The notes below the pieces were generated by a model. That model was not told the DNA's origin. It ran no database searches and was given only the letters and a program-made list of their open reading frames with translations. This document shows, piece after piece, positions 15,290 through 23,144 of a stretch of 64,000 bases of DNA (positions are counted from its first letter, which is position 1; each line of letters starts with the position of its first letter). Source of the DNA: Raineyella fluvialis (lineage in GTDB: Bacteria > Actinomycetota > Actinomycetes > Propionibacteriales > Propionibacteriaceae). A program made the position numbers and the translations under genes. The stretch lies in the NCBI RefSeq assembly GCF_009646095.1, contig NZ_CP045725.1:930001-994000 (forward strand). Direction: 5' to 3'.

Positions 15290-15463
15290 GTCGGACTGAC
15301 TCCTTTCGCACTCGGCGGTGGGCGGCCTGGAGGTCCGGAAGACCCGCCGCCCGTCGAACGCGCTGGCACTCAGCCTAGGCCGCAGCGCGCGGAAGCGGCA
15401 GAGGCAGGGCTCGAACGGGGCGCGAGGGGGCGTCCATGGCCGGCCGATGTCACCGACCCCTCC

Positions 15464-15469
15464 TAGACT
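15464..15469 (+). promoter_or_regulatory. Putative -10 element (TAGACT) for the HelD/HelR-like gene
   Basis: TAGACT in the context CCTCCTAGACTGACGGCC. The same CTCCTAGA(C/G)T(G)AC context recurs before the PLD helicase, and TAGACT precedes the second parA. No convincing -35 is seen. It lies eight bases before a GTG at 15478 and 53 bases before the preferred GTG at 15523. Confidence 0.45.
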
Positions 15470-15522
15470 GACGGCCGGTGGTCGCCACGACGGCGGCCGT
15501 CGACGTCTGCACAGGGGGAGAA

Positions 15523-17316
15523 GTGGCCGAACAGGATCCGTCCGTCCTGGAGTACGAGCGGGACATGAACACCGCGTACCTGGCCAACCTGGAACGCCGC
15601 TCCGGCGGTTACGAGATCGACGACCGCACCCGCTGGACTCCCAGGATCACCATCGGCTCACTGATCGGGCGGGTCCGGATGCGCTATGACGGCGACGACG
15701 CGGACGAGGAGTTCTACGTCGCCGAGACATCGGCCGATCTCGACGGCGTCGAGGTGATCAGTTGGGCCGCCCCGGCCGCCGCGGCGTACTACGGCAAGCG
15801 GTACGGCGAGGAGTCCGGGCTGAAGATCCGCCGGCGCTTCACCAAGGGCCCGCAGCACGGCATCGAGACGTACGCCGACGAGTGGATCATCGCCCCGGAC
15901 GGGGCGGAGTTCAGCACGCCCTCCGCGGGCCTGACGGCGCGGGAGGAGCCCCAGGCGGCCCAGGCCGAGCTGCCCCGGGTCGTCCCCGGCACGGAGGAGC
16001 AGTTGCGCAAGCCGCGGACATCACTCAAGGCGCTGCTGCGGACCCTCCAGCCCGAGCAGTACGACCTGGTCGCCGCCTCCCCCACCGAGTCGCTGACGAT
16101 CCAGGGCTACGCGGGAACGGGCAAGACGGTGGTCGCGACGCATCGCGCCGCCTGGCTCACCCACACCGACCGCGAGACGCCGCTACGCAGGGTGGCGCTG
16201 ATCGGGCCGACGCAGACCTGGGCGCGCCACATCAGCCCCGTGGTCGACGAACTCGCCACCCCCGGCACGGTGACGATCACCTCGCTGCCGGAGGTGATGC
16301 GGACCATCATCGGCGCCCCCGAACGGCACGCCTCCAGCGACGACTTCCTCGACGCCTACTCCGCACAGCTGGGAAAGACGCTGGACAGGCTCGTCACCAA
16401 GCAGCGCAAGGCGGACCCCGCGCTGACTCCCGCCCGGGCGTACGAGGTCTTCCTGCACACCAACGACCTGTCGATCCCTGCCTCCCGCAGACCCGAGTTC
16501 CTCCTCTGGCGGGAGACGCTGCCCCAGACGTACGAGAACGCCCTGGGCGACCGGACGCTGTGGCCGCTACTCACCTACCTCACCGTGCTGTTGAGCCCGC
16601 AGGCGCGCTACGACCACATCATCGTCGACGAGGCGCAGGACCTGCGGCCGCTGGAGTGGCTGATCCTCACCCACCTGAACAGCGGCGCCTGGACGCTGGT
16701 CGGCGACACCCACCAGCGCCGGACCAGCCACACACCCCGTGGCTGGAAGGAGATCCGCACGCTGCTGGGGCTGTCGACCTGGGACGAGGAGTCGCTGCTC
16801 GGTGGCTACCGGACCACCAAGGCGATCATCGACTTCGCGGCGTGTCTCCTCGAGGGGTCCGCCGGCCATCGGGCGTACGACGTGCTGGGCGAGGGCGAGC
16901 CGCCGCTGATCATCCATGCCCGCACCGTCGACGAGCTCGAGGCGATCACCCTCGAGCAGGCCGACCGGCTCTCCGCGGATCATCCGAAGGGCAAGGTCGC
17001 GGTGATCACCCCGCTGGTGCGCCCCGTCGGCTCGTACGCGCACCGGCATGGCTGGACCGAAGGTGCTGACCACTACTGGTCCAACGAGGACGGCCGCCGG
17101 TTCACCCTGCTGACCTCGGAGGAGGCGCGGGGTCTGGAGTTCGACGCGGTCGTGGTGGTCGAGCCCTCGGCCTTCAAGGCGCTGCCCGGCGACAACGGCC
17201 CCCTCTACACGGCGCTGACCCGGGCCAATCTGGAACTGGTCATCGTGCACGAGCGCGTGCTGCCGCCGAAGATGGTCCGCCACCTGCGGACGCACCGGCC
17301 TGCTGTCCTCGCCTGA
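15523..17316 (+). CDS. HelD/HelR-like superfamily I ATPase (UvrD-type helicase fold)
   Basis: Encodes 597 residues. Residues about 65-125 match the HelD-type region: FYVAETSADLDG, VISWAAPAAAAYYG, LKIRRRF. The SF1 motor follows: Walker A GYAGTGKT (195-202) followed by HRAAWL, motif II VDEAQD (368-373), GDTHQRR, motif V EEARGLEFD and motif VI YTALTRA. HelD/HelR proteins remove stalled RNA polymerase from DNA or rescue it from rifamycins. This one is about 100 residues shorter than typical members and has little of the N-terminal coiled coil, so the role is uncertain. The GTG at 15523 follows AGGGGGAG; a possible leaderless GTG lies at 15478. It leads a five-gene block with two ParA proteins and a PLD helicase. 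Confidence 0.82.
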   Translation: MAEQDPSVLEYERDMNTAYLANLERRSGGYEIDDRTRWTPRITIGSLIGRVRMRYDGDDADEEFYVAETSADLDGVEVISWAAPAAAAYYGKRYGEESGLKIRRRFTKGPQHGIETYADEWIIAPDGAEFSTPSAGLTAREEPQAAQAELPRVVPGTEEQLRKPRTSLKALLRTLQPEQYDLVAASPTESLTIQGYAGTGKTVVATHRAAWLTHTDRETPLRRVALIGPTQTWARHISPVVDELATPGTVTITSLPEVMRTIIGAPERHASSDDFLDAYSAQLGKTLDRLVTKQRKADPALTPARAYEVFLHTNDLSIPASRRPEFLLWRETLPQTYENALGDRTLWPLLTYLTVLLSPQARYDHIIVDEAQDLRPLEWLILTHLNSGAWTLVGDTHQRRTSHTPRGWKEIRTLLGLSTWDEESLLGGYRTTKAIIDFAACLLEGSAGHRAYDVLGEGEPPLIIHARTVDELEAITLEQADRLSADHPKGKVAVITPLVRPVGSYAHRHGWTEGADHYWSNEDGRRFTLLTSEEARGLEFDAVVVVEPSAFKALPGDNGPLYTALTRANLELVIVHERVLPPKMVRHLRTHRPAVLA

Positions 17317-17383
17317 TCGTCCCCGTCCACACCTCGTCTTGGTCCCCGCCGTAGGGCCGTCACCGAAGGAGCATCGCCGCCGC

Positions 17384-18244
17384 ATGACACATGTCATCTC
17401 AGTCGTGAACATGAAGGGTGGAGTCGGCAAGACCACTACCACGGTGATGCTGGGCGAGTTCCTGGCCGCGGAGTACGGCAAGAGGGTGCTGCTGGTCGAC
17501 ATGGACCCGCAGGTCAGCCTCTCGATCACCATGCTCGGTGAACTGCAGTGGAGACTGGTCAGGGACGCCGGCCACACGGCGGTCGCCATGTTCAGTGATG
17601 CCCTGGACACGGCCGAGGTGCCGAGGTTCGACATCGCCAGGGCCGTCTACCGCAACGCCTCGAACGTGAAGGCCATCCACGACGTCGACCTGCTGCCGCT
17701 GGCCCCGGACATCATCGATCTGCAGCCCCACCTCGCCGCGCTGAGCGTCGCCAAGCGCAGCTCGGTCAGGGTCTGGGACATCCTGCACGGGGCGCTCGCC
17801 CCGATCCTGCCGCGCTACGACTACGTCCTGATCGACTGCCCGCCGAGCCTGGACGTGATGACGAAGAACGCTCTGCGCGCGTCCTCGGGCTACCTCATCC
17901 CGACGATCCCGGACGTCATGTCGACGTACGGCATCACGCTGCTGCAGCAGAAGGTGGGCGAGTTCGCCGAGCAGGCGGGCATACAGCGGCCGGCCGAGCT
18001 CGGCGTGATCGTCACCAAACACAAGCTGAACTCCAGCGTGCACACCGGGCAGGTCGCCCGGTTGCGCAACCACCCGACGTGGCCGCCGATGCTGACCCCG
18101 ACCGTGCCGGAAGCCAACCAGATCGCCGGGGCGGCCGAGTACCAGCAGTACTCGACCCTGCGCATGAAGTACGGGCAGGCGCACTACGCGGACCTGGCCG
18201 AACTGACCGAGACGTTCCGCCAGCGGGTGGAGGAGGGCGAGTGA
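17384..18244 (+). CDS. ParA-family ATPase, copy 1
   Basis: Encodes 286 residues with a deviant Walker A near the N-terminus (NMKGGVGKTTTT, residues 9-20), VLLVDMDPQ (Walker A-prime) and YVLIDCPPSLDVM (Walker B). ParA proteins bind non-specific DNA when ATP-bound and position plasmids, chromosomes or protein cargo. It has no N-terminal helix-turn-helix. It is about as similar to the ParA at 19093 as duplicated genes commonly are, with long identical stretches by eye. Its TGA overlaps the next ATG by one base, coupling it to the SAP-repeat protein. No ParB homologue is present. Confidence 0.9.
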   Translation: MTHVISVVNMKGGVGKTTTTVMLGEFLAAEYGKRVLLVDMDPQVSLSITMLGELQWRLVRDAGHTAVAMFSDALDTAEVPRFDIARAVYRNASNVKAIHDVDLLPLAPDIIDLQPHLAALSVAKRSSVRVWDILHGALAPILPRYDYVLIDCPPSLDVMTKNALRASSGYLIPTIPDVMSTYGITLLQQKVGEFAEQAGIQRPAELGVIVTKHKLNSSVHTGQVARLRNHPTWPPMLTPTVPEANQIAGAAEYQQYSTLRMKYGQAHYADLAELTETFRQRVEEGE

Positions 18245-18969
18245 TGACCGAGACCAGCCAGCTGACCGATCCCGACCGCAGCACCGTAACCGACGACGTC
18301 GGCGCAGCCGCGGAAGCGCTGCGGGCGTTGGCCGCCGCCGAGGGCGGCGACGTGCTCGCCGGCCAGCTCTCGCGACTCGTCGCCGTGATCGCACAGGAAG
18401 CGATCCGAACGAAGCGGTTCCGCTCCGACCTGGTGGCCGCGGTGGTCCCGGAGCCGGCGCCCTCAGCGCCGAACGCCGCGCCGGGCGCGGGCTCGGGCTC
18501 GGCCTCCCCCGTGACCCGCAGCCGGCTCGAAAGAATGACGAAGCCTGACCTGAAGCGGCTGATCGATCAGGAGGGCATGGATCCGGACCGTACGCTCCGG
18601 TCCAAGGCGACCAAGCCCGCCATGATCGACCTGATCCTGGCCTTCCGGGCCACGGGCTCTGGGGCTCCCACAGCGAACGCCACCCCTGTAGCCGCGCCCG
18701 AGGCTGCATCCCCGGCGAAACCGCCGAAGCGTCGCCGGCGCCCCAGCCCTCTCAACCCCTATGCGGTCGCTGCGGAGGACGGGGCGGAGGGCCTGCGCGA
18801 GCAGCTCCAGCAACTCGACGTCGAAGAACTCAAGGACATCGTCACCGAGTACGGCATGAACCACGACCGCCGCGCGATGAGCTGGACCGACCACGACCGG
18901 TTCGTGGAGCGGATCCTGGCGAAGACCGACTTCGGCGCCTCGCAGGGCAGCGCGTTCCGGAGTTCGTGA
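18244..18969 (+). CDS. Protein with two SAP-like repeats, candidate DNA-binding partner of ParA
   Basis: Encodes 241 residues. An Ala/Leu-rich helical N-terminus (about 15-65) is followed by a Pro/Ala linker. Two related segments at 94-134 (LERMTKPDLKRLIDQEGMD...MIDLIL) and 184-226 (LREQLQQLDVEELKDIVTEYGM...FVERIL) share an L-x-x-L-K-x-x-x-x-x-x-G-M pattern typical of SAP or Rho-N-like DNA/RNA-binding folds. A basic PKRRRR stretch lies between them. It is translationally coupled to ParA copy 1 (TGATG overlap) and precedes ParA copy 2, the place a ParB-like adaptor would take. That role is an inference; no named family was recognised. Confidence 0.75.
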   Translation: MTETSQLTDPDRSTVTDDVGAAAEALRALAAAEGGDVLAGQLSRLVAVIAQEAIRTKRFRSDLVAAVVPEPAPSAPNAAPGAGSGSASPVTRSRLERMTKPDLKRLIDQEGMDPDRTLRSKATKPAMIDLILAFRATGSGAPTANATPVAAPEAASPAKPPKRRRRPSPLNPYAVAAEDGAEGLREQLQQLDVEELKDIVTEYGMNHDRRAMSWTDHDRFVERILAKTDFGASQGSAFRSS

Positions 18970-19019
18970 TGACGCGCCGGCCGGTCGTATCAGGGACCGG
19001 GTTCGTCGGCCCGGTTACT

Positions 19020-19025
19020 TAGACT
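19020..19025 (+). promoter_or_regulatory. Putative -10 element (TAGACT) for parA copy 2
   Basis: TAGACT in the 123-base gap between the SAP-repeat gene and the second parA, 67 bases before its ATG. It matches the -10 proposed for the HelD/HelR-like gene. It would allow parA copy 2 to be transcribed separately. No clear -35 was seen. Confidence 0.4.
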
Positions 19026-19092
19026 GGCCAAGTTGGGCCAGCCATCGCCGGCCCGACCACCTGGTCGACATCGTGAAGGAGAACACCGCCGA

Positions 19093-19956
19093 ATGACTCA
19101 CGTCATCTCCGTCCTCAACATGAAGGGTGGGGTCGGCAAGACCACCACCACGGTGATGCTCGGCGAGTTCCTGGCGGGAGAGTTCGGCAAGAAGGTGCTC
19201 CTGGTCGACATGGATCCACAGATCAGCATGTCGATCGCGATGCTCGGGGAGTTCCACTGGTCCCGGGTCAATGAGGCCAACGCCACCCTGGTCCCCCTCT
19301 TCCTCGACGCGTTGATCGAGGGTCGCCGCTCGACCCCGCAGTTCGACGTACACAAGACGCTCCAGCGCAACGCGTCCGACGTGCAGACGATCACCGGGGT
19401 GGATCTGCTGCCGTCCTCCTACGACGTCATCCCCCTGCAGCGTCACCTGGCGGTGATGACCGTCGCCCGCCACAGCCCCGTGAAGGCCTGGGACATCCTC
19501 GGCCCGGGGATCGCGCCGATCATGGACGACTACGACTACGTCCTGATCGACTGCCCGCCCAGCCTCGAAGTGATGACGATGAACGCGCTGCGGATCTCCG
19601 AGGGCTACGTGATCCCGACCATCCCCGACGTGCTGTCGACGTACGGGGTCCCGCTGGTCCAGGAACAGGTCGGGGTGTTCGCCGAGGAGGTGGGGATGGA
19701 GTGTCCGCGAGAACTCGGGATCATCGTCACCAAGTACCGCATGCTGTCGTCGGTCCACCGGGCGCAGGTCAACCGGATGCGCAACGATGCGACGCTGCCG
19801 CAGCTGATGGAGCCCTGGATCCCCGAGACAAATCGGATCGCCGCCTCCGCCGCGGACGAGGGCTTCCCGTCGCTGCAGGTGAAGTACGGGCGCGAGCACT
19901 TCCGGGCGCTGCGGCAGCTGACGGATGCGTTCAGGCGACGCGTCGAGGGCAACTGA
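19093..19956 (+). CDS. ParA-family ATPase, copy 2
   Basis: Encodes 287 residues, paralogous to the protein at 17384. It shares the start MTHVISV-NMKGGVGKTTTT, VLLVDMDPQ, YVLIDCPPSLEVM, GYVIPTIPDVLSTYG and LGIIVTKYRM, with divergence between residues 55 and 100 and in the last third. GAAGGAGAAC lies before the ATG. All nucleotide-binding residues are kept, so both copies should be active. Tandem ParA proteins flanking a DNA-binding-like protein suggest a hetero-oligomeric device, but this is inferred from order only. Confidence 0.9.
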   Translation: MTHVISVLNMKGGVGKTTTTVMLGEFLAGEFGKKVLLVDMDPQISMSIAMLGEFHWSRVNEANATLVPLFLDALIEGRRSTPQFDVHKTLQRNASDVQTITGVDLLPSSYDVIPLQRHLAVMTVARHSPVKAWDILGPGIAPIMDDYDYVLIDCPPSLEVMTMNALRISEGYVIPTIPDVLSTYGVPLVQEQVGVFAEEVGMECPRELGIIVTKYRMLSSVHRAQVNRMRNDATLPQLMEPWIPETNRIAASAADEGFPSLQVKYGREHFRALRQLTDAFRRRVEGN

Positions 19957-19989
19957 ATCATCGAGGGAGACGCTGTCACAGCTTCCTCC

Positions 19990-19995
19990 TAGAGT
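19990..19995 (+). promoter_or_regulatory. Putative -10 element (TAGAGT) for the PLD helicase gene
   Basis: TAGAGT in the context CTCCTAGAGTGACTGCCG, closely matching the CTCCTAGACTGACGGCC context at 15461. A GTG seven bases downstream opens only a ten-codon frame. The ATG at 20032 would give a 30-base leader. Confidence 0.45.
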
Positions 19996-20060
19996 GACTG
20001 CCGTGACACCAGCGGCAGTCGGTACTCAATCATGAGCGGGCAGAGCCACTGCCCGAGGGG

Positions 20061-23000
20061 ATGTACGACGCGCTCCTCACCCGCGCGCTGCAACGTCGCC
20101 TCACGACGAGCTCTCTCGAGGCGGAACTCATCAAGCTCTCGGAGGCTGACCTGCCAACACGATTGGCCGATCATGTCGGGCGCGCCTTGAGTCGGCGTCT
20201 CGATGACGAGGGCGTCGAAGCTCAGGTAGCACTCGTCAATGACATGTTGAACCAGCTGGGCTTCGACGATGACGGGATTGCCCCTGAGCCTCAGATTCTC
20301 ACCGCGCTTCTTCACACTCCCGAGCCGGGCGCTCCTCCTCGCTACACCGGGCGCCCCCGCACGCCGCTGTCCGAAGCCGACCTGCTGACGAATGGCACCG
20401 GCGAACCGTCGTTGGCTGCCGAGCTGATCTCGGAGCTCGCCAGCGCCGACGAAGTGCTCCTCCTGTCAGCCTTCATCAAGTGGTCGGGGCTGCGGACGAT
20501 GCGTAAAGCTCTTGCTGACGCTGCCAGCCGTGCGATTCCCCTGCGCATCATCACCACGACGTATATGGGCGCGACTGAGCGCGGGGCCTTGGACCGACTG
20601 GTGCGCGAGTTTGGTGCTGAGATCCAAGTGTCGTACGAAACCCGCCGTACTCGACTGCACGCGAAGGCCTGGCTCTTCAAACGCCTCACTGGCTTCGACA
20701 CGGCGTACGTGGGCTCGTCGAACTTGTCCGCCCCCGCATTGCTTGACGGCTTGGAATGGAATGTGCGGCTGTCGACCCGGGCAACGCCTCAACTCCTCCG
20801 GAAGTTCGAGGCGACCTTCGCGCAGTACTGGAATGACTCGTCCTTCGAACCGTACGACCCGGATCGCGACGCGGAGCGACTGGATGAGGCTCTTGCGGTG
20901 GCCGGGGGACGGCGAGCGCCTGCGGGCCAGGTGATCAGCGTCTCCGGATTGCAGGTCCGCCCCTTCCCCTATCAAGCAGAAATGCTGGAGGCGCTCGAGG
21001 CTGAGCGCGAAGTCCACGACCGGCACCAAAATCTCGTCGTTGCCGCGACCGGAACGGGTAAGACGGTCGTGGCCGCGCTGGATTACCGCAACCTCTGCGA
21101 CACCCTAGGCACAGGCTCTTCGCGACCCACGTTGCTCTTCGTGGCCCACCGCAAGGAGATCCTCACCCAGTCGCTGAGGACCTTCCGCGAGGTGCTAAAG
21201 GACGGCAGTTTCGGTGAGCTCTGGGTGGATGGCGAGAGGCCGCGGGAATGGCGGCACGTGTTCGCTTCGATCCAGTCACTCCATGCAGCCGATATCCACC
21301 AAATGGGCTCGAACGCCTTCGACGTGGTGATCATCGACGAGTTCCACCATGCCGCTGCCCCAAGCTACGACGCACTCCTGAACCACCTCCAGCCACGCGA
21401 ACTCGTCGGGCTGACCGCTACGCCGGAACGAGCTGATGGGCTGGACGTACGGGCCTACTTCGGTGGGCACATTTCGGTGGAGATGCGGCTCTGGGAGGCG
21501 CTCGATGCCGAGCTTCTCAGTCCCTTCCACTATTTCGTCATCTCCGACAACACCGATCTGTCACAGCTCTCCTGGAAGCGGGGCAGCTATGACGTCCGCG
21601 AGTTGGAGAAGCTCTACACGGGAAACCATGCTCGGGCAGCTCTCATCCTGGACCAGGTCCGTGACCTCATCGAGGACCCGCTGCGCATGCGGGCCATCGG
21701 GTTCTGTGTCGGCATCGGCCACGCGCAATGGATGGCGGAAGTCTTCACTGCGGCAGGGATCCCCTCCACAGCCGTGGCTGGCACCATCTCAAGCGAGGAG
21801 CGAGCACAGGCACTCAGCGATCTGCAGGAGCGGCGGATCAACGCCATGTTCGCCGTCGACATGTTCAACGAGGGCGTCGATCTGCCTGACGTCGACACTG
21901 TGCTGTTCCTCCGTCCGACCGAATCGGCCACCGTCTTCCTCCAGCAACTGGGCCGAGGCCTGCGACGTACGAAAGACAAGGCGGTATTGACCGCCCTCGA
22001 CTTCGTCGGCCACCAGCACAGAGAGTTCCGATTCGACCAGCGATTCCGAGCCATCACCGGCTCGAGCACCGCGCGCCTTCGCCGCGACATCGAGGAGGGG
22101 TTCCCCTACCTGCCTTCGGGCTGCCAGATCGTTATGGATCGGACCTCCCAGGAACGCGTTCTCAATAGTCTCAAGCGTCAGATCGGCGGGCGGTGGAATG
22201 ACATCGTCGCCCAGCTTCGTCGCATCGGAGACGTTCCCTTGGAGACCTTCCTTGAGGAGTCGCAGATCCCCCTCGCGGAGATCGTCGGCAAGGCCGGCCG
22301 AAGTTGGACGGGAGCACGACGCGAAGCTGGCTTCACTGTTCCGGCGGGCGGACCGAATGAAGAAGCGCTCTTGAGGCGAACCCGCGCGTTCGTCCACGTC
22401 GATGATCCTCAACGGGCGGCCGCCTATCTGAATCTACTGTCCGATGCGACGCAGCCCTACTCGGACCTCTCAGAGGCTGATCAGCGGTGGGCTCGCATGC
22501 TCTACTTCTCGCTGTGGCCGGGCCAGAACGCCTGGCCGTCATATGACGCCGGGCTACAAGCCCTCGCCGCGGAGCCCGCAGTACGCCAGGAAATCTCCGA
22601 GCTGGTACGACTCGGCGTCGTCCGAGCCGAGCACCGTACCCGCCGATTGGAGGGGGCGCTCGGAGCCACGGGGCTTCAATCACACGCCCGATACACCCGG
22701 GAAGAACTGGCTGCGGCCCTCGACTACGCCACCCTTACGCGCACGCCGAACACCCTTCGCCAGGGCGTCTTCTACTCCGCGGACTTCAACACCGACGGAT
22801 TATTGGTCACCCTGCAGAAGTCCGAACGCGATTACTCGCCGACGACGATGTATCGCGACTACGCCATCAGTCCCGAGCTCTTCCATTGGGAAAGCCAGTC
22901 CATGACGAAGGTGGACTCGCCAACCGGACAGCGCTACGTCCAACAGAGGGAAAACGGCAATCACGTCCTGCTGTTCGTGCGGACTGGCAAGAGCTGGGAG

Positions 23001-23144
23001 TTCGGGAAAGGGGTGCCGTACATGCTGTTGGGCGAAGCCAATTACGTGGAGCATCGAGGCGAGCAGCCGATCGCCGTCACATGGCGGCTACGGCGGCCGA
23101 TGCCTGCCGAGGAATTCCGTACTGCCAGCGTCGCAGCCGGCTAG
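20061..23144 (+). CDS. PLD nuclease - DEAD helicase - DUF3427 protein
   Basis: Encodes 1027 residues. Order: short helical N-terminus; PLD-type domain at about 110-260 with one HKD-like motif (RLHAKAWLF, then GSSNLS); SF2 helicase with Walker A AATGTGKT (328-335), DEFHH (426-430), LTATPERADG and motif VI QQLGRGLRRT; then a C-terminal DUF3427-type region (FNTDGLLVTLQKSERDYSPTTMYRDYAIS). Such proteins occur in defence and DNA-processing islands; a nucleolytic helicase acting on foreign DNA is plausible, unproven. The ATG at 20061 has no spaced ribosome site. One extra G in the GGG run at 20038-20040 would link ATG 20032 in frame as MSGAEPLPEGMYDALL, probably the true start. Codons are visibly richer in A/T than in the neighbours, suggesting transfer. 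Confidence 0.88.
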   Translation: MYDALLTRALQRRLTTSSLEAELIKLSEADLPTRLADHVGRALSRRLDDEGVEAQVALVNDMLNQLGFDDDGIAPEPQILTALLHTPEPGAPPRYTGRPRTPLSEADLLTNGTGEPSLAAELISELASADEVLLLSAFIKWSGLRTMRKALADAASRAIPLRIITTTYMGATERGALDRLVREFGAEIQVSYETRRTRLHAKAWLFKRLTGFDTAYVGSSNLSAPALLDGLEWNVRLSTRATPQLLRKFEATFAQYWNDSSFEPYDPDRDAERLDEALAVAGGRRAPAGQVISVSGLQVRPFPYQAEMLEALEAEREVHDRHQNLVVAATGTGKTVVAALDYRNLCDTLGTGSSRPTLLFVAHRKEILTQSLRTFREVLKDGSFGELWVDGERPREWRHVFASIQSLHAADIHQMGSNAFDVVIIDEFHHAAAPSYDALLNHLQPRELVGLTATPERADGLDVRAYFGGHISVEMRLWEALDAELLSPFHYFVISDNTDLSQLSWKRGSYDVRELEKLYTGNHARAALILDQVRDLIEDPLRMRAIGFCVGIGHAQWMAEVFTAAGIPSTAVAGTISSEERAQALSDLQERRINAMFAVDMFNEGVDLPDVDTVLFLRPTESATVFLQQLGRGLRRTKDKAVLTALDFVGHQHREFRFDQRFRAITGSSTARLRRDIEEGFPYLPSGCQIVMDRTSQERVLNSLKRQIGGRWNDIVAQLRRIGDVPLETFLEESQIPLAEIVGKAGRSWTGARREAGFTVPAGGPNEEALLRRTRAFVHVDDPQRAAAYLNLLSDATQPYSDLSEADQRWARMLYFSLWPGQNAWPSYDAGLQALAAEPAVRQEISELVRLGVVRAEHRTRRLEGALGATGLQSHARYTREELAAALDYATLTRTPNTLRQGVFYSADFNTDGLLVTLQKSERDYSPTTMYRDYAISPELFHWESQSMTKVDSPTGQRYVQQRENGNHVLLFVRTGKSWEFGKGVPYMLLGEANYVEHRGEQPIAVTWRLRRPMPAEEFRTASVAAG

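Follow-up and report, generated by a model that had tools for sequence, protein, structure and literature searches.

ParA-SAP, a pair of two tightly coupled genes, is the real unit in a stretch of the Raineyella fluvialis genome (G000; 3.65 Mb, one contig) in which five adjacent genes had been proposed to form a single new system. The window, as we call the whole 64,000-nt stretch analysed, does carry five neighbouring genes on the plus strand, encoding a HelD-like superfamily 1 (SF1) ATPase, a ParA-family ATPase (ParA1), a SAP-like protein, a second ParA (ParA2) and a large protein with PLD, ResIII, Helicase_C and DUF3427 domains. Pfam and NCBIfam backed the ParA, SF1/HelD-like and PLD/helicase/DUF3427 assignments, and the two ParA proteins on either side of the SAP-like gene proved to be paralogues with 58% identity. 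The five genes are not one system, and the full order was found in just two of the four Raineyella genomes. The DNA-surveillance or defence device put forward in the original prediction is partly supported. ParA-SAP is a conserved pair that turns up next to a variety of anti-virus-type enzymes, and its SAP-like member is probably DNA-binding. We consider the case about evenly balanced for ParA-SAP being a ParA/adaptor module with exchangeable DNA-processing effectors and a putative role in defence.

The SAP profile matched 10 of the 147 genomes in a family sample. Among the nine matching genomes other than G000, seven had this ParA directly upstream; G055 and G074 gave weak SAP matches and had no ParA. 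Further loci were collected from named genomes (6), viral contigs (12) and a phylum sample of 396 genomes (two), 20 in total, and ParA was upstream of SAP in 18 of these. One of the two misses was cut at the contig start (L048) and the other (L034, in G312) was a weak match with nothing in 20 kb; L037 and L038 are repeats of the G044 and G105 loci. The test set came from the family to which G424 belongs, a genome represented until then by a single hit: of 401 genomes searched, 54 matched, G424 included, giving 53 new loci. In 51 of these, ParA immediately preceded SAP, in one case (L196) as three frame pieces, and the exceptions were a locus at a contig end (L183) and a partial SAP (L185). The ParA/SAP overlap was exactly -4 in 43 of the 51 loci. 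The pair was undescribed in the titles and abstracts searched, most subscription literature lying outside the search, so that its absence in print is not established. The part of PMC7159879 that we consulted has only MinD/ParA-like domains, within other conflict systems.

The SAP-like protein had been described as carrying two SAP-like repeats, a description that our data back only in part. An AlphaFold model contained two small helical domains (residues ~92-136 and ~172-239), with a predicted local distance difference test score of 81 and a predicted template modelling score (pTM) of 0.38, but the window protein had no Pfam SAP match. When 10 aligned homologues were scanned, HeH/LEM was matched in three (best 1.3e-5) and SAP in three (best 0.0021). 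The C-terminal domain was common to all aligned members, and the middle domain was absent from the proteobacterial homologues. No PADLOC model matched the SAP-like protein, and ParA matched PDC-M28B alone, weakly and over its first ~40-75 residues.

Coordinates of the features in the window
Feature	Position	Strand	Basis
RecA-NDp/PafBC-like element TGTCACCG-N8-TAGACT, HelD-ParA1-SAP operon	15448..15469	+	motif match, aligned HelD upstream regions
HelD-like SF1 ATPase gene	15523..17316 (open reading frame opens 15478)	+	Pfam, NCBIfam and PDB matches; start from Shine-Dalgarno site and GTG
ParA1, ParA-family ATPase, KGGVGKT deviant Walker A	17384..18244	+	Pfam, sequence comparison
SAP-like adaptor gene; start GTG 18241 or ATG 18244, overlaps ParA1 stop	18241..18969	+	sequence, homologue alignment, AlphaFold model
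-10-like TAGACT upstream of ParA2, weaker match to RecA-NDp/PafBC type	19020..19025	+	sequence; compare G044
ParA2	19093..19956	+	Pfam, identity to ParA1, tree
RecA-NDp/PafBC-like element TGTCACAG-N8-TAGAGT, restriction-enzyme gene	19974..19995	+	motif match
SauUSI-like type IV restriction enzyme (PLD nuclease, superfamily 2 helicase, DUF3427)	20061..23144	+	PADLOC, PDB, Pfam

In other genomes, ParA-SAP shared its operon or close neighbourhood with homologues of MzaB, MzaC, DrmA and DrmB. MzaC stood beside the ParA locus in G022 and had no match in G000 at E<=1e-30. The large helicase in the window is by its domains and matches a SauUSI-like type IV restriction enzyme, and it is predicted to cleave modified DNA. 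PADLOC model PDLC03659 (mREase_IV, type IV methyl-directed) covered residues 88-1019 with 1138 bits, and the best solved relative, 7clg_A (2.6e-76), which we take to be the SauUSI structure, aligned over residues 108-655 only. The two enzymes share a PLD nuclease fused to a superfamily 2 helicase, but the window enzyme ends in DUF3427 where SauUSI, according to the portion of PMC7913695 consulted, has an SRA target domain. As to the foreign-looking base usage noted earlier, the enzyme region was somewhat AT-richer than its surroundings, with 63-64% GC against ~70% in most of the window. This enzyme is an accessory neighbour and not the core of the ParA-SAP module. At E<=1e-60 it was matched in 33 of the 147 family genomes; in eight the match was distant (31-35% identity), and 29 of the 33 had no copy of this ParA. 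The enzyme adjoined the ParA locus in three of the four Raineyella genomes. G071 has the enzyme and ParA ~100 kb apart.

For the HelD-like motor, the HelD profile (cut-off E<=1e-40) and the ParA profile were both run on the family sample. HelD was matched in seven of the 147 genomes and ParA in eight; HelD was directly upstream of ParA-SAP in all seven, making HelD-ParA-SAP a three-gene unit there, and full-length HelD of this subfamily was found only in these genomes. G071 had ParA-SAP and no HelD within the 20 kb fetched. Two further genomes of the phylum sample matched ~three quarters of the HelD model, and neither locus had ParA or SAP alongside; in G409 the contig ends ~130 bases after the match, so a downstream ParA is still possible there. 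Distant relatives adjoined a DrmD-like SNF2 helicase (G409) and a Swt1-HEPN/AAA/MTES_1575 protein (G184). G044 had a second, distant HelD-like gene split over two contigs (L123 1-1264; L124 242-6855), with SNF2 helicase pieces and transposase-like genes between them, type III restriction-modification genes on the other contig and no ParA nearby. The HelD-ParA-SAP locus of G039 was flanked by what by eye were BrnT/BrnA- and HicA/HicB-like toxin-antitoxin pairs (L028 8066-8612, 13290-13882).

The motor had been assigned to the RNA-polymerase-releasing HelD/HelR type, and of this the motor core stood. HelD/HelR gave the best PDB matches (6yxu_H, 6.4e-34; 6wvk_H, 7.3e-30) and the best NCBIfam match, and the SF1 core and N-terminal globular segment aligned with the window protein, but its HelR score was 121 bits against NCBIfam cut-offs of 750 and 1100. 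The sections consulted of PMC7749160 place an N-terminal coiled coil at residues 1-69 of Msm HelD, a clamp-opening domain at 261-447 and a primary-channel loop at 448-503. In the window protein the N-terminal antiparallel coiled coil for the RNA polymerase secondary channel gives way to ~40 residues ahead of the globular segment, with a single short helix of low confidence. The aligned core blocks are 107 profile positions apart, a space taken up in Msm HelD by 261 residues that hold the clamp-opening domain and primary-channel loop. Since both features that engage RNA polymerase are mostly missing, the alignments indicate a HelD-like motor core that is without most of the polymerase-binding arms. 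The gene more likely starts at the GTG at 15523 than at 15478, given the ribosome site AGGGGGAG ahead of this codon and the conservation of the region among aligned relatives.

The TAGACT/TAGAGT boxes of the original prediction were located at 15464, 19020 and 19990. They resemble DNA-damage promoters of the RecA-NDp/PafBC type, although one position deviates, and induction by damage is predicted. The consensus in the consulted part of PMC5656591 is tTGTCRgtg-8nt-TannnT; both window sites agree with it in the core TGTCR, the N8 spacer and TAnnnT and depart from it at position 7, where they have C for the consensus G. Across the 64 kb there were exactly two occurrences of a loose TGTC[AG]-N11-TAnnnT pattern, one upstream of HelD and one upstream of the restriction enzyme, each on the plus strand. 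The pattern TGTCAnnG-N8-TAnnnT had 28 matches in the genome, these two promoters among them, and none for the reversed control. NCBIfam scanning of seven of the 28 downstream proteins named dnaX, dnaB, sbcD, uvrB, recC and a DEDD exonuclease and left L094 without a name. The remaining proteins, judged by eye from their translations, included some non-repair ones (e.g. adenylosuccinate-synthase-like and ClpP-like), and some of the 28 matches may be due to chance. As in the RecA-NDp/PafBC regulon, DNA-repair genes stand behind TGTCR-N11-TAnnnT promoters and the genome encodes an adjacent pair of WYL proteins, as expected for PafB/PafC, neither of which NCBIfam named. TAGACT was conserved upstream of HelD in seven of seven genomes; by our reading of the upstream regions, six of the seven also keep the TGTCR part, G044 being the one that deviates. 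The ParA-SAP promoter of G424 was TTGTCGGTC-N8-TAGAGT. No motif was found directly upstream of the restriction enzyme in G044 and G061, nor in seven upstream regions among nine unlinked enzyme relatives, G112 and G038 having given no reading. Seven nucleotides past the TAGAGT box upstream of the restriction-enzyme gene, a 10-codon GTG-started frame (20003-20035) opens that could be a leaderless leader peptide. Separately, TGTCAG-type matches lay 1-35 bases upstream of genes that by eye were 13E12/DUF222-HNH-like (L089, L094, L097, L102, L111); the L094 protein had zero NCBIfam matches.

A number of observations weigh against the module as we read it. The SAP-like model, with its pTM of 0.38, had zero PDB matches at E<=0.001 in Foldseek, and the SAP profile was matched in just three of the 396 phylum genomes, G000 included, one of the three being false. 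No defence partner was recognised in 24 of the 51 test loci (11 non-defence near acetyl-CoA carboxylase, 13 unclassified), the neighbours in G016 and G071 were housekeeping-like by eye, and HelD was in none of the 53 test loci. Related species supplied many of the test loci, and on the tree the partners fall into about three clades and do not count as 27 independent events; the sole background rate for defence neighbours is that of MzaC, 10/147. As for the promoters, the six named repair and replication genes have TGTCAG and both window elements TGTCAC, no recognisable repair gene follows any of the four remaining TGTCAC sites (L093, L096, L105, L107), TGTC has a mismatch upstream of HelD in G044, and the ParA-SAP locus of G071 has no PafBC-like promoter. 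Among the 51 test loci six had the motif within 300 nt, compared with 19 of 6558 control pieces, so that PafBC-like control is limited to some clades. In 11 of the partner-less test loci, two uncharacterised genes (~440 and ~152 aa; L157 6840-8773) precede ParA-SAP and gave no Pfam match.

The pair might alternatively be a mobile-element partition or maintenance cassette, made up of ParA, a SAP-fold centromere binder and a palindromic site, with the defence genes as co-cargo of the island and the Raineyella copy a domesticated remnant. We regard this as rather unlikely, though several features fit it. Relatives were found on plasmids or chromids of Methylocystis, Rhizobium and Caballeronia, and others lay on contigs that also encode terminase, portal, capsid or integrase. 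In 16 of the 18 loci scanned, all of them outside the window, two palindromic units near CTGTGAACGnnGTAAACA, 22-24 bp apart, preceded the conserved ParA start by 211-249 nt; no such pair was present in L055 and L022, and L050, L052 and L053 of the 16 are near-copies. Several of these loci were inside prophage structural modules. The mobile-branch ParA has an N-terminal extension that by eye resembles a helix-turn-helix, which places the palindromic pair at the start of that gene, just upstream of it; the pair may serve as operator, as partition site or in both roles. The gene layout is like that of type I par loci, the deviant Walker A ParA fold being followed directly by a small partner gene, and ParB-less island ParA genes are taken as a sign of plasmid or mobile origin in the section consulted of PMC5379612. 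The pair differs from type I ParABS in its recurrent defence-type effectors and in the SAP/HeH-like C-terminal domain of the partner. The SAP-like protein could be a functional ParB analogue. The absence of ParB claimed earlier was confirmed by Pfam for the five genes, to which the scan was confined, and no centromere-like palindromes were found in the window stretches searched. ParA-based cargo positioning, as in McdA/McdB, offers a comparison system for the adaptor module.

A module for DNA damage or transcription conflicts, in which the HelD-like motor would free damaged DNA of bound proteins or RNA polymerase while ParA-SAP would organise the nucleoid during repair, appears improbable to us. 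The HelD homology, the promoter motif common to uvrB, sbcD, recC, dnaB and dnaX, and the synteny across the four Raineyella genomes speak for it, but the missing polymerase-engaging arms, the patchy distribution of HelD, the defence-type genes beside its distant relatives and the TGTCAC/TGTCAG difference do not agree with it; moreover, 45 of the 51 test loci, which are without HelD, have no PafBC-like promoter. That unrelated accessory genes merely lie side by side with no joint function would explain the five-gene order being in two of four genomes and the many enzyme-bearing genomes without this ParA, and for the restriction enzyme it is possible. For ParA-SAP it is already unlikely in view of the linkage in 51 of 53 loci and the HelD subfamily standing next to ParA-SAP in all seven genomes that carry it, and as an account of the whole we find it highly improbable.

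All four Raineyella genomes carry this ParA at a syntenic locus, with two copies in G000 and G044 and one in G022 and G061. In the larger tree the sole copy of G022 grouped with ParA2 (97/91) and that of G061, which is on a long branch, with ParA1 (91/86); in the smaller tree the ParA2-G022 grouping had 83/96 and G061 was unplaced. G061 also keeps a 31-residue C-terminal piece of SAP just upstream of the restriction enzyme. The simplest reading is that ParA2 is an old tandem duplicate, left by an ancestral tandem duplication of ParA-SAP followed by differential loss. Between SAP and the SAP remnant of G061 is a gene on the minus strand (L023 9108-9806) for what by eye is a TMEM175-like membrane protein.
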